Of a stretch of 64,000 nt of DNA, positions 22,870 through 26,975 are shown one piece after another (position 1 is the first letter of the stretch; each line of letters opens with the position of its first letter). Source of the stretch: Ruminococcaceae bacterium R-25 (GTDB lineage: Bacteria > Bacillota > Clostridia > Saccharofermentanales > Saccharofermentanaceae). The stretch is from positions 620,001 through 684,000 of the forward strand of contig QGFZ01000001.1 in assembly GCA_003149065.1 (NCBI GenBank). The letters are read 5' to 3'. The notes beneath the pieces were generated by a model. That model was not told where the DNA came from. It worked only from the letters and a program-made list of their open reading frames with translations, and made no database searches. The position numbers and the translations under genes are program-made.

Positions 22870-23964
22870 TCAGACGTTGAATCTGAATACTACGACGTCA
22901 CCGTCTTTCATTACATATTCCTTACCTTCGGATCTTACAAGACCTTTTTCCTTAGCTGCGTTATATGTGCCGCAGGCGATTAGATCATCGTAAGCTACGA
23001 CCTCGGCTCTGATAAAGCCTCTTTCAAAGTCTGAGTGGATCTTTCCTGCAGCCTGGGGAGCCTTTGTGCCGTTCTTGATCGTCCAGGCACGAACTTCTTT
23101 GGGGCCGGCTGTAAGGAATGAGATGAGACCGAGGAGGGTATAGGATGCGTTGATCATCTTATCAAGACCTGCGCTCTCGATGCCTAAATCTTCCAGGAAC
23201 ATCTCGCGGTCTTCGGGAGAGAGCTCGCCTAATTCCTCTTCGATCTTAGCTGAGATAACGACAACGCCGGAACCTTCCTTTGCTGCGATCTCTTTTACTG
23301 TCTGGACATAAGGAATGTCTTCGTTCTTTTTGATATCGTCTTCTGCGATGTTTGCACAGTAGAGAACAGGCTTCATGGAAATGAGCTGGAGATCTTTAAT
23401 GTACTCCTGTTCGTCATCTTCGAATGAAAGAGTTCTTGCAGACTTGCCTTCTGCGAGACAATCGTAGATCTTTTCGAATACTGCGAGTTCTTTAGCGAAA
23501 GCCTTGTCGCCGCCTTTCATCATCTTCTTTGTGCGGTCAATTCTCTTTTCCATGATTTCCAGGTCAGAAAGGACAAGTTCGATATCGATGGTAGCAATAT
23601 CGCCTGCCGGATCAGCATGGCCGTTTACGTGGATAACGTCAGGATCGTCGAAGCATCTTACAACGTGAACGATAGCATCGCACTCTCTGATGTTTGATAA
23701 GAACTTGTTGCCAAGACCTTCGCCTTTGGAAGCGCCTGCAACAAGACCTGCGATGTCAACGAATTCGACGACAGCGGGTGTGTATTTTTCAGGATTATAG
23801 ATCTCAGCGAGTTTATCGAGTCTCTTATCAGGAACTGAAACGACGCCTACATTAGGTTCAATAGTGCAGAAAGGATAGTTAGCTGCCTCAGCGCCTGCCT
23901 TTGTAATTGCGTTGAAAAGAGTGCTCTTACCGACATTAGGAAGTCCAACGATTCCAAGCTTCAT
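22870..23964 (-). CDS. ychF: Redox-regulated ribosome-associated ATPase YchF
   Basis: A 364-residue Obg-family P-loop protein that binds ribosomes and prefers ATP over GTP. G1 is [18 protein letters not shown] at the N-terminus, and the switch region has [15 protein letters not shown] near 33. G3 is [17 protein letters not shown] near 68, with a non-GTP-like NxxD-equivalent region later (YCANIAEDD near 203). The C-terminal TGS domain ends [10 protein letters not shown]. It is a single-gene unit, divergent from comM. GAGGTAT just before ATG serves as ribosome-binding site. Confidence 0.97.
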
Positions 23965-24000: not shown

Positions 24001-24009
24001 ATTGTAGCA
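24001..24009 (-). promoter_or_regulatory. Extended -10 promoter candidate for ychF
   Basis: On the minus strand the sequence reads TGCTACAAT, an extended -10, 37 bp upstream of the ychF start. The phased TTTGTCGG array begins about 20 bp further upstream. The -35 match is poor. Confidence 0.4.
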
Positions 24010-24026
24010 CATTAAAAGCATAATAC

Positions 24027-24143
24027 TTTGTAGGTTGTTTGTCGGTATTTGTCGGGTAATTGTCGGCTCTTTTGTAGGTTTTTGTAACTTATCATCTGGT
24101 TTTGTCAGTTTTTGTCGGAAATCCTGTCGGTTTTCGTTGTCGG
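24027..24143. repeat. Helically phased TTTGTCGG-type repeat array
   Basis: About ten copies of TTTGTCGG or near variants (TTTGTAGG, TTTGTCAG, TTTGTAAC) fall with their central G at 24030, 24041, 24051, 24062, 24074, 24084, 24104, 24114, 24126 and 24139. Spacings are mostly 10-13 bp, or twice that once, which is close to one DNA helical turn. The array fills the gap between divergent ychF and comM. It is too short-period for a CRISPR array. Confidence 0.75.
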
Positions 24144-24214
24144 TTTTGCGATGTTTTCGTACTGATAATCCTGATTTTAAAAGCGTATTCTGCTTATAAA
24201 AGGAGGATACGGAA

Positions 24215-25735
24215 ATGCCAGCTAAACCTAATGTTGTACATATATATTCATGCTTTACGTCGGGCTCTGATTCGACCGTTTCTTTGATCGAAGTATCGAT
24301 ATCACCGGGCATACCGACATTCTCGGTAATAGGGCTTTGCGATTCTTCGATAAGGGAGTCTCAAGGCCGGATCAGGTCAGCTTTTAAGTCGGCGGGTTTC
24401 AATATGCCCAAAGGACACATTACGGTCGGTATAAGTCCTGCTTATATGAGGAAAGCGGGAACTGGTTTTGATCTTCCTATGGCGATGGGAATACTTTTTT
24501 GCTCAGGCCAGCTGTATCTTCCGCCAAACAGCAAAATCTACGCAGAAGGCGAGCTGACATTAGGCGGAGACATTATTGGAACACCGGGTGCATGTATCAG
24601 GCTTAAGACTGTACGTGATATGGATTTCGATTACAGGATCATTCCAGTGAGCGAATCTTCAGGTGCGGGCCTAGCCAGGTTTTCGGGACAGGCAATAACA
24701 AGACTTACTGATCTGAACAGCCTTTTTGACGGAAACAACTATAAGGAGGCTGAGTTTACTTATGATTGTCCTTTAACGTCAGATGAATATATCGATATCT
24801 CGAATTTGAAAGGGCAGGAGAAGACTAAGAGGGCACTTCTTATAAGCGCTGCAGGATTTCATAATCTGCTGCTTTTGGGGAGCCCGGGTTGCGGAAAGAC
24901 ACTGGCAGGGAAAATGCTTGCAGGCATTATGCCGAAGCTCAGTCCTGAAGAGTTATCCGATGTTTATTCAATGACTGAACTTGTTGAAGGCGAGAATGCG
25001 AAGATCAGTCTTGAAAGACCTGTGCGCATGATCGGTCCTAATATAACTGTCGGAAAACTTCTCGGGAGTTCAGTGAGCTTAACGCCAGGTGAACTTGCAC
25101 TTGCTAATCACGGAATACTGTTTGCTGATGAGCTTCCTCTATATAACTCCGAAGTGATCGACTTTTTGAGAAAGCCTCTTGAAGAACGCAAAGTTCATCT
25201 GATGAAGAAAGGTAATCTCTATTCCTTTGATACTAACTTCATATTCCTGGGAACTGGAAATCCCTGTAAATGCGGCCTTTATTACGAGAAAGGTGATAAG
25301 TGCAGATGTAATCCTAATGAGATAAGCAGATATATGTCTAAAATGTCCGGACCTTTTCTTGAGCGGATAGATCTTTTCAGCGAGATGAGATCCATATCAG
25401 GCAAGGACATGGCTTGTATCTATACAGGTGACAAAGAAGGCGAGAGCTTAAAGTACAGAGAGATTGTTCAAAGATGCTGGGATTTGGCACACAAAAGGTA
25501 TGGAGCCGGGCTCTTAAACGGTACTTTTCCTGACGGGGACATCAGAGATGTTTTAAGGATCCCTGAAAAGTCAGTTAAATATGCATCCGAAGTGTCGGAC
25601 AAGGGTTTCTTTACGGCAAGAGGATTTACCAGAGTCTTAAGAGTTGCAAGAACGATAGCAGATATAAAAGAAGCACCTGATGTTACAGTTGAAGACATTG
25701 CGGAAGCAGTTCAATACAGGAGGAGAGATTTCTGA
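24215..25735 (+). CDS. comM: ComM/YifB family Mg-chelatase-like AAA+ protein
   Basis: A 506-residue AAA+ helicase-like protein. ComM promotes branch migration during natural transformation. The N-terminal ChlI-like S5-fold domain has GIPTFSVIGLCDSSIRES near residue 30 and GFDLPMAMGIL near 83. The AAA+ core has Walker A GSPGCGKTLAGKML near 222 and Walker B-like LFADELP near 303, then GTGNPCKCG near 345 and the C-terminal Mg-chelatase domain ending with TRVLRVARTIADIK. AAAGGAGG lies before ATG 24215. It is followed at once by dprA, a typical pairing for DNA uptake and recombination. Confidence 0.92.
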   Translation: MPAKPNVVHIYSCFTSGSDSTVSLIEVSISPGIPTFSVIGLCDSSIRESQGRIRSAFKSAGFNMPKGHITVGISPAYMRKAGTGFDLPMAMGILFCSGQLYLPPNSKIYAEGELTLGGDIIGTPGACIRLKTVRDMDFDYRIIPVSESSGAGLARFSGQAITRLTDLNSLFDGNNYKEAEFTYDCPLTSDEYIDISNLKGQEKTKRALLISAAGFHNLLLLGSPGCGKTLAGKMLAGIMPKLSPEELSDVYSMTELVEGENAKISLERPVRMIGPNITVGKLLGSSVSLTPGELALANHGILFADELPLYNSEVIDFLRKPLEERKVHLMKKGNLYSFDTNFIFLGTGNPCKCGLYYEKGDKCRCNPNEISRYMSKMSGPFLERIDLFSEMRSISGKDMACIYTGDKEGESLKYREIVQRCWDLAHKRYGAGLLNGTFPDGDIRDVLRIPEKSVKYASEVSDKGFFTARGFTRVLRVARTIADIKEAPDVTVEDIAEAVQYRRRDF

Positions 25736-25736
25736 T

Positions 25737-26975
25737 ATGTGGGATGAGATAACAAACAGGAAGGCTGATTATTTTTATTCGGCTGTCATGCTTAATACCG
25801 ATATTAATTACAGGACTCTTAATGAACTTGCAGAAAGAAATGTTTTCAGATCTTACAGGGACTTATACGATAAAGAACTGCTTAACAGGATTGCAAATGA
25901 AGAATTTGATCTGAAGCCAGATACAGTCTATAAGATTAAAAGGCTTCTGGATTCTTATGTGGATATTAAAAAGATCGTAACTAAATACGAGAAGATCTCA
26001 ATGGAGAACCGTATAAATGTGGTATCAGTACTTGATAAAGCATATCCGTATAATTGGAAAGTCTTAAGCGGAATGCCAAAGGTCTTTTATACCAGAGGGA
26101 ATTATGCCCTGATCGATACCATGACTCTTCAAGGTTCTGTTGCGGTTGTAGGTTCAAGAAATCCAAGCAGGTATGCCCAGTATGCAACGGATAAGATCTG
26201 TAAAGAACTTGGAAATAAAGGGATAACGATAGTTTCCGGAATGGCCGCAGGTATTGACCGGCAGGCTCATATTTCATCTGTTAATACTGACGGAGGTACG
26301 GTTGCAGTTTTGGCCGGAGGCGTAGATAACATTTATCCTCCTGCAAATAAGGATATTTACGATCTTATAAGCATGAATGGCCTCCTGATATCTGAAATGC
26401 CGCCCGGGCAGATACCTTTAAGGCGTTATTTTCCGTCGAGAAACAGACTTATTGCAGGCCTTTCAGACTGCACATTGATCATGGAAGCCGGTAATTGCTC
26501 AGGCACCCTTCATACGGCTTCGTTTGCAGCTAACCAGGGAAAAGAAGTATTTGTACTGCCGAATAATATCTACTACGAAAATGCAAAGGGCGGATTAAAG
26601 CTCTTGGAAGACGGCGGAAATGTCCTGCTTGGTGCTGACAGCGTTATAGACAGCGTAACAAGATCTCTAATGTATAAGCACATGGAACTCGGATGCGCTT
26701 CTGAATTAAATTTCAGGAATGATAAGGATGATTTTACCGATAAGATCGATATCAATGCTCTAAGAGAACTCTCTAAAGTCAGACCGGATATGTTGACCGA
26801 TGAGAACTGGAAGACGATAATTACTGATGCGCTTACGTTAAAACCCCTTTGCGCAGATGAATTGTGTACTGTCACAATGCTCCCGTTTTATAAGGTTTCG
26901 ATCCTTTTGACAGAGCTTGAGCTTAATGGGACAGTTTGTCAGGAGAAGGGTAAGTACTCGTTGACATTTGTATAA
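25737..26975 (+). CDS. dprA: DNA-processing protein DprA
   Basis: A 412-residue single-stranded-DNA-binding protein that loads RecA during natural transformation. The Rossmann-like core shows VVGSRNPSRYAQYAT near residue 136, VSGMAAGIDRQAH near 169, GGVDNIYPPAN near 195 and FPSRNRLIAGLSD near 232. Helical N-terminal (SAM-like) and C-terminal winged-helix regions flank it. ATG 25737 is used because AGGAGGAGA at 25719-25727 serves it, one base after the comM stop region; earlier in-frame codons lie within comM. The end of the gene carries a TTGACA that may belong to the topA promoter. Confidence 0.94.
   Translation: MWDEITNRKADYFYSAVMLNTDINYRTLNELAERNVFRSYRDLYDKELLNRIANEEFDLKPDTVYKIKRLLDSYVDIKKIVTKYEKISMENRINVVSVLDKAYPYNWKVLSGMPKVFYTRGNYALIDTMTLQGSVAVVGSRNPSRYAQYATDKICKELGNKGITIVSGMAAGIDRQAHISSVNTDGGTVAVLAGGVDNIYPPANKDIYDLISMNGLLISEMPPGQIPLRRYFPSRNRLIAGLSDCTLIMEAGNCSGTLHTASFAANQGKEVFVLPNNIYYENAKGGLKLLEDGGNVLLGADSVIDSVTRSLMYKHMELGCASELNFRNDKDDFTDKIDINALRELSKVRPDMLTDENWKTIITDALTLKPLCADELCTVTMLPFYKVSILLTELELNGTVCQEKGKYSLTFV

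Follow-up and report, generated by a model that had tools for sequence, protein, structure and literature searches.

A helically phased array of TTGTCG words as the very probable control region of comM, a DNA-uptake gene, in a relative of Saccharofermentans

Background

What is an array of short T-rich words, repeated once per turn of the DNA helix, doing in the gap between the divergent genes ychF and comM, and to which of its neighbours does it belong? The array lies in the window, by which we mean the whole 64-kb stretch of DNA analysed here, and an earlier sequence-only reading had described it as about ten phased words that might bend the DNA or align numerous copies of a protein along a single helix face. 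Control regions shared among DNA-uptake genes have precedents; in the ComK regulon of Bacillus and the ComX/SigX regulon of Streptococcus one motif is common to comEC, comEA, dprA and recombination genes. A second point of reference is Spo0A, whose binding site, the 0A box, has the core TGTCGAA with base contacts at G2, C4 and G5, and which influences competence in B. subtilis (PMC3485338). Among the matches listed in a search of open-licence PMC papers, which is not proof of absence, no title dealt with the switching of DNA uptake in this group of Clostridia.

Results and discussion

The array exceeds shuffled sequence and belongs to comM

The ychF-comM gap measures 250 bp and holds ten TTGTCG-like words between 24028 and 24142 (Table 1), separated in order by 11, 10, 11, 12, 10, 20, 10, 12 and 13 bp. 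Against a null model of 2000 dinucleotide shuffles of the 250 bp, the gap contains eight words with at most one mismatch to TTTGTCGG (shuffles: mean 0.44, maximum 5) and nine with at most two (mean 3.38, maximum 9, P 0.0015), and its longest chain of words in steps of 9-13 bp has five members where no shuffle exceeded four; this chain is the longest of its kind on either strand of the window. The words fit a period of 10.70 bp best, with a phase coherence of 0.85, and if ten words are scattered at random with a minimum distance of 8 bp, the spacing taken alone gives P 0.016. Phasing by itself is therefore significant and modest at this locus, and it is the genus-wide data below that carry it. 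The array is confirmed as a real observation: the words sit where the sequence-only reading had placed them, its distances to the extended -10 of ychF (24001-24009) and to comM (24215) are correct, it was right that this is not a CRISPR array, and its suggestion of many protein copies on one helix face fits the phasing. The exact word TTTGTCGG occurs three times in the window, every time inside the array, with one further copy on the opposite strand, and for this reason a role as a DNA-uptake signal (DUS) is unlikely.

Table 1. Coordinates of the array and of neighbouring features in the window
Feature	Coordinates	Strand	Basis or remark
ychF, divergent neighbour	22870..23964	-	NCBIfam YchF 505.8 bits, cut-off 279.2
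Predicted extended -10 of ychF, TGCTACAAT	24001..24009	-	sequence
Match to one arm of dispersed ~140-bp repeat	24024..24158	+	66.1 bits, E 2.4e-19 (not independent, see text)
Array, left part	24028..24065	+	promoter-type tandem boxes 10-11 bp apart
Array words 1-5	TTGTAG 24028, TTGTCG 24039, 24049, 24060, TTGTAG 24072	+	
Array words 6-10	TTGTAA 24082, TTGTCA 24102, TTGTCG 24112, CTGTCG 24124, TTGTCG 24137	+	
Array, right part	24072..24142	+	six words from TTGTAG 24072 to TTGTCG 24137
Two degenerate words, TTGCGA 24146 and TTCGTA 24156	24146..24161	+	same stretch aligned in close relatives
Alternative comM -10, GATAAT	24164..24169	+	conserved in same relatives
Likely comM -10, TATTCT	24186..24191	+	24 nt after last degenerate word (24156)
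comM ribosome-binding site, AAGGAGG	24200..24206	+	sequence
comM, YifB-type Mg-chelatase-like AAA ATPase	24215..25735	+	Pfam Mg_chelatase E 2.7e-57, ChlI, Mg_chelatase_C
dprA, next gene after comM	25680..26975	+	Pfam DNA_processg_A E 1e-63, DprA_WH

The gene downstream bears the name comM as a label from the earlier reading, and the true start of dprA, which follows it, may lie further downstream than 25680. On the other side, the first array word would cover the -35 position of the putative ychF promoter. Which neighbour the array serves is indicated by related genomes. Chained TTGTCG words precede comM at 15 of 17 loci in the genus (P <= 0.035 each), the exceptions being L011, cut by a contig end, and L017, which has no chained words. 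At two of the comM loci (L015 and L016) the array is kept with a gene other than ychF upstream, so that it is assigned to comM, and an attachment to ychF is rejected. The earlier reading had described the array by its place between ychF and comM; the link is to comM and to further DNA-uptake genes, and not to the pair as such. Beyond the genus a chain of words occurs at 3 of 12 comM loci, and TTGTCG itself lies within 200 bp upstream at 7 of the 12, against 0.46 expected, nine control words occurring in 0-1 of these loci each; the associated P of 8e-8 assumes independent loci, and three of the twelve (G020, G026, G029) represent one genus. Several of these outgroup boxes, from other families of the order, read TTGTCGAA. 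In this relative of Saccharofermentans the array very likely acts as the control region of comM, a DNA-uptake gene. The comparisons that the earlier reading had proposed, with shuffled sequence and with related genomes, thus leave the array standing, since word number and chain length exceed the shuffles and relatives keep the words at comM.

One promoter geometry and one set of target genes

The named relatives in the genus-wide sample are Saccharofermentans MAGs and Ruminococcaceae, Clostridiales and similar records, several of them with sheep, goat, water buffalo or deer in the title. A strict triple, TTGTCG-N4-TTGTCG-N4-TTGTCG, is present in 42 of the 59 genomes, and its backward control in none. 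A search for further copies, likewise suggested by the earlier reading, found TTGTCG-N2..7-TTGTCG 25 times in the genome of the window (backward control 10), exactly N4 in 16 of these cases and including the pair in the window array itself (TTGTCG-N4-TTGTCG at G000:C1:644039, G000 being the window's genome). Compact arrays there stand before comM-dprA, comEC (whose divergent neighbour is a YihA/YsxC GTPase gene by NCBIfam), comEA, a TadA-like operon, recA and two nuclease-like genes, and another before a pilin-like operon, beyond an IS110 insertion; the remaining pairs fall inside open reading frames, in the intergenic array L078 or in dispersed repeats. Pfam supports the naming of comEC, comEA, recA, comM, dprA, the T2SSE ATPase and its T2SSF partner in this genome. 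L078 itself (G000:C2:398196-398223) is a triple TTGTCG array in 11-bp steps; the next same-strand gene lies some 550 bp away, and no target was assigned to the array.

Seven genomes were picked for their many triple hits, and 40 of their 41 or 42 sites were used, leaving out one G018 site at a contig edge and one G005 hit; targets were assigned by tblastn with proteins of the window's genome and some members of the nuclease-like family. On this basis 35 of the 40 sites precede comM (4), comEC (1), comEA (6), the TadA-like operon (6), the pilin-like operon (6) or genes of the nuclease-like family (12, of which one, L151, starts 425 nt from its array). The five other targets are a Gp49/RelE-like gene, HicA, two PD-(D/E)XK-type genes, one recognised by Pfam below its cut-off and one by eye, and one gene to which nothing was assigned. 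Those in G041 and G018 (L114, L119, L121, L135), where the array stands before Gp49/RelE-like, HicA and PD-(D/E)XK-type genes, are toxin- or nuclease-like genes within the uptake regulon. At comEC, chained words occur at 14 of 18 loci of the genus, with P <= 0.04 at 12; they are absent or weak at 4 of 18 comEC and 2 of 17 comM loci. None of the 40 sites belongs to recA, where an array was seen only in the window's genome. The region upstream of that gene (L075) also carries TTGACA/TAGAAT, which we take to be a promoter, and the palindrome GAACAAATGTTC, which resembles a LexA box.

The distance from array to promoter is nearly fixed. Measured from the end of the last word, a TANNNT motif begins at 23-24 nt in 37 of the 47 arrays scanned (relatives supplied 40 and the window's genome seven, its comM array not included), where 1000 shuffles averaged 2.4 and never exceeded 10. 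Eight arrays make up a weaker second peak at 33-34 nt, which could be explained by a further degenerate word adding a helical turn. No -35 element was seen at the usual distance in the aligned promoter rows inspected, and for that reason the promoter looks like one at which an activator is placed next to the polymerase. The comM array of the window is degenerate, its final words resting on register, and has a rival -10 at 24164; this hexamer and TATTCT at 24186 are both conserved in G004, G006 and G007. The two degenerate words at 24146 and 24156 would carry the 10-bp register on to 24161, as far as the promoter.

One promoter motif is thus common to comEC, comEA, the comM-dprA operon and the pilus genes, the labels of the latter being tentative, which is the pattern of a competence regulon, and the array is almost certainly a regulatory operator of a DNA-uptake gene set. 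Its resemblance to the ComK and ComX/SigX regulons lies in the single motif at comEC, comEA, dprA and recombination genes, but the motif and the candidate regulator are different ones, and TadA-like and pilin-like operons are included. The regulon thereby places a TadA-like ATPase operon beside ComEC and ComEA, and flags the nuclease-like family as likely DNA-uptake genes.

Several of these names need qualification. The best NCBIfam match of the TadA-like ATPase is the TadA family, at 255 bits and under the cut-off of 373, and the 303-aa 'tadZ-like' protein has no family in Pfam or NCBIfam. Co-regulation and the single T2SSE match in each of G022 and G024 suggest that the uptake pilus is of Tad type; five T2SSE matches, four of them over cut-off, occur in the window's genome, and because of these other pili may serve there. 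A Tad-type pilus is reported to be coupled to DNA uptake in Liberibacter (PMC8513845); the likeness is in the type of pilus, but here the link is one of shared regulation only, and the window's genome, by contrast, carries other T2SSE ATPases too. The pilin-like operon, named from the look of its N-termini and recognised in the window's genome by likeness to L120 and L123, has no pilin family by Pfam or NCBIfam. In the window's genome an IS110 transposase gene (NCBIfam) lies between its triple array and the operon (L071, G000:C1:951000-961000), and in the relatives read the array directly precedes the operon. One protein of the operon, of 335 aa (L071 722-1729, minus strand), matches Pfam CDI_toxin_EC869_like with 27 bits, exactly the cut-off. 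The nuclease-like family is multi-copy, with members of about 260 aa that share conserved R-S-E, D, E and G positions and resemble PD-(D/E)XK nucleases; the window's genome has two paralogous genes of about 270 aa (L079 5085-5900 and L080 5035-5835, in reverse-complemented coordinates). In Pfam the first member had no match and others had scattered weak ones (best rve, E 0.0055), and the tentative label 'nuclease-like' comes from the conserved polar positions and from weak PDB profile matches to Bax1 endonuclease (E 0.041) and endodeoxyribonuclease I entries (0.23-0.42).

A Spo0A-type protein as candidate regulator

The sequence-only reading had been able to name no known operator that the words match, and on this point it has to be corrected, since they resemble a known operator type, the Spo0A box with its core TGTCGAA. 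Like the boxes that Bacillus and Clostridioides carry in their abrB and spo0A promoters, they combine a TGTCG core, including the contacted G, C and G, with a T-rich flank; the core with G2, C4 and G5 is present in the five exact TTGTCG words of Table 1 and also genus-wide. Unlike the classical box, in which AA follows, the words of the window's genome end in GG or AG, and within the window the exact words are followed by GG or similar and never by AA, so that the box of the window's subgroup reads TTGTCGG. The AA is found in G001, G016 and G041, where many words read TTGTCGAAA, and at some outgroup loci. The arrangement differs too, in that the arrays consist of three to about twelve boxes in tandem, 10-11 bp apart and in a single orientation, before DNA-uptake genes.

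A family profile finds one gene for a protein of about 180 aa with a Spo0A-type domain, in single copy, in 56 of the 59 genomes of the genus. The Pfam profile Spo0A_C alone matches in 52 of the 59 at E <= 1, some of these surely by chance, and over its cut-off in 30; it also matches in all 12 order-level genomes outside the genus. The regulator sequence set (A1) consisted of twelve extracted sequences, and extraction yielded sequences from 17 of 38 loci. The protein of the window's genome has 179 aa and scores 28.7 bits against Spo0A_C (cut-off 25), its only Pfam match at E <= 0.01; no receiver domain was recognised, and NCBIfam has no family for it. The gene was not found in G005, G033 and G056, where full-length ligA is missing as well. 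In G000 and G008 ligA (LigA by NCBIfam) adjoins the regulator gene, these five genomes being those in which ligA was checked. Because the neighbour is lacking too, the locus is probably missing from the three assemblies, and a true absence of the regulator from G005, which has arrays, is disfavoured.

An AlphaFold model built from 34 relatives (34 of 40 loci) has a mean pLDDT of 79.6, and about 88-98 in the effector part. It aligns with the Spo0A effector domain at Z 12.3 (1fc3) and 11.4 (1lq1, a DNA complex), the next fold scoring 5.3, although the aligner's notes advise caution for helical folds below Z of about 13 and this domain is helical; folds other than Spo0A, at Z of about 5 or less, were set aside. 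Foldseek ranks the same Spo0A entries first with weak E values (about 0.2-0.4, best 0.19), and the sequence match in the PDB is weak as well (E 0.028). The N-terminal part, of about 55 aa, is conserved and of its own kind; residues 1-65, modelled at lower confidence, are possibly a remnant receiver fold. The presumed base-reading recognition helix has the pattern E-R-x-x-R, its E, R and R being kept in 33, 34 and 34 of 34 sequences. These should correspond to Spo0A residues 213, 214 and 217 if the 120-residue chain spans 148-267, and we take residues 213 and 214 to be ones that touch bases.

The likeness to Spo0A therefore comprises the effector domain, by Pfam and by fold, and the recognition-helix pattern. 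The differences are a length of about 180 aa, the lack of a recognised receiver and the distinct N-terminal part, together with boxes directly at comEC, comEA and comM and genomes in which SpoIVA does not reach its cut-off. SpoIVA, the one marker from which loss of sporulation was judged, was over cut-off in none of the 59 genomes, with one weaker match in G070, and was detected in the control, Bacillus subtilis. As no receiver was found and SpoIVA is over cut-off in none, the Spo0A-type domain seems to have outlived sporulation.

We regard it as quite probable that this protein is the binder of the array. Confidence is limited because its gene is unlinked, is not visibly autoregulated and does not co-vary with the arrays, and because the window's boxes end in GG. 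TTGTCG lies within 300 bp upstream of the gene at 1 of 40 named loci, and so there is no sign of autoregulation; in G000 its surroundings showed no com gene. The strict triple is absent from 17 of the 59 genomes, the majority of which keep the regulator, so that the two do not co-vary in this sample. These same observations (the distance from com genes, the GG endings in the window's subgroup, the protein retained where strict triples are not) count in favour of the array being a competence-regulon operator bound by a different regulator, the Spo0A-like protein doing something else. That explanation is unlikely, though it is the best of the alternatives: the core bases of the array are those that Spo0A contacts in the 0A box (PMC3485338), the presumed base-reading residues are kept in 33-34 of 34 sequences, and TTGTCG stands upstream of comM at 7 of 12 loci from other families, in genomes that have a Spo0A_C match.

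The array is probably, then, a multi-site operator that activates comM-dprA within a competence regulon, with the Spo0A-like orphan protein as its candidate binder. The words would be tandem Spo0A-type boxes one helical turn apart, in Saccharofermentans-like Clostridia, and the binder an orphan of about 180 aa, encoded once per genome and beside ligA where checked, that has an effector domain of Spo0A type and lacks a recognised receiver. Its copies would sit side by side on a single helix face, ending just upstream of the -35 region, and would bring RNA polymerase to a promoter with a -10 and no -35. We infer that the protein binds the words, that it activates, and that the cells take up DNA; the likeness of the words to the sites of Spo0A, the master regulator of sporulation, suggests that a shortened relative of Spo0A has been reused to switch on DNA uptake. 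Since operator, promoter geometry, target gene set and one candidate protein are all named, this reading is testable in vitro, and it would provide an example in which the DNA-binding domain of a sporulation regulator has persisted in a new role after sporulation was lost.

Dispersed copies of the phased repeat

Phased words of this kind are not confined to promoters. The window array matches one arm of a dispersed repeat of about 140 bp (Table 1), a score that is not independent because the window is one of the nine sequences from which the repeat model was built, and positions 24060-24157 are 75% identical to one copy. The family has twelve arms in the eight sources searched, and the window's genome gives 13 matches, namely the same twelve arms and the recA array. 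Eight of the twelve form four inverted pairs with short spacers, the other four, the window's among them, being single, and ten show no net indel over the matched length despite much sequence divergence. By eye, the consensus consists of about 13 T-run words, mostly ending in GG or AG, every 9-12 bp with a mean of about 10.5. The search covered 39 of the 59 genomes of the genus and found a match in 18 (G000 counted), some of them ordinary promoter arrays; inverted arm pairs occur in G038, G044, G015 and G034. Behind two of the dispersed copies no -10 was seen by eye, and a promoter meaning for these repeats was dropped.

It could accordingly be supposed that the window array is for the most part one more copy of a REP/MITE-like repeat that came to lie in the comM promoter, with little regulatory role, and the match itself, the intergenic position of other copies and the lack of a visible -10 behind two of them agree with this. 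The idea is partly compatible with an operator, but as a replacement for it we consider it improbable: in more distant relatives the same position before comM is occupied by compact arrays, the long form persists there in the close relatives G004, G006 and G007, whose comM promoters match the repeat model too, and the -10 in register is conserved. Least credible of all, and close to negligible, is that the words work through curvature intrinsic to the DNA, or as a site for a nucleoid protein, instead of through a specific activator; this would suit T-tracts with a period of about 10.5 bp, present in the long repeat arms as well, but not the exact recurrence of the TTGTCG core beyond a mere T-run, the fixed orientation, a distance to the -10 fixed to about 1 bp, or target genes that form one functional set.

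The dispersed arms may be decoys, platforms or simply mobile repeats. Joining them to the competence operator, we lean towards a history in which sporulation was lost, a Spo0A effector domain was kept, lost its recognised receiver and became a dedicated competence activator of ComEC, ComEA, ComM-DprA, a Tad-type pilus and the nuclease-like family, and its boxes multiplied into phased arrays, the 13-word arms, often in inverted pairs, serving as long binding platforms or decoys for the same protein. Intergenic inverted pairs of arms made of TTTGTCGG-like words are seen at L292 (3992-4291), L291 (4024-4323), L290 (3862-4140) and L289 (3994-4291), and one inverted pair follows a pheT-like gene, at the place where other species have the pilin-like operon and its array.
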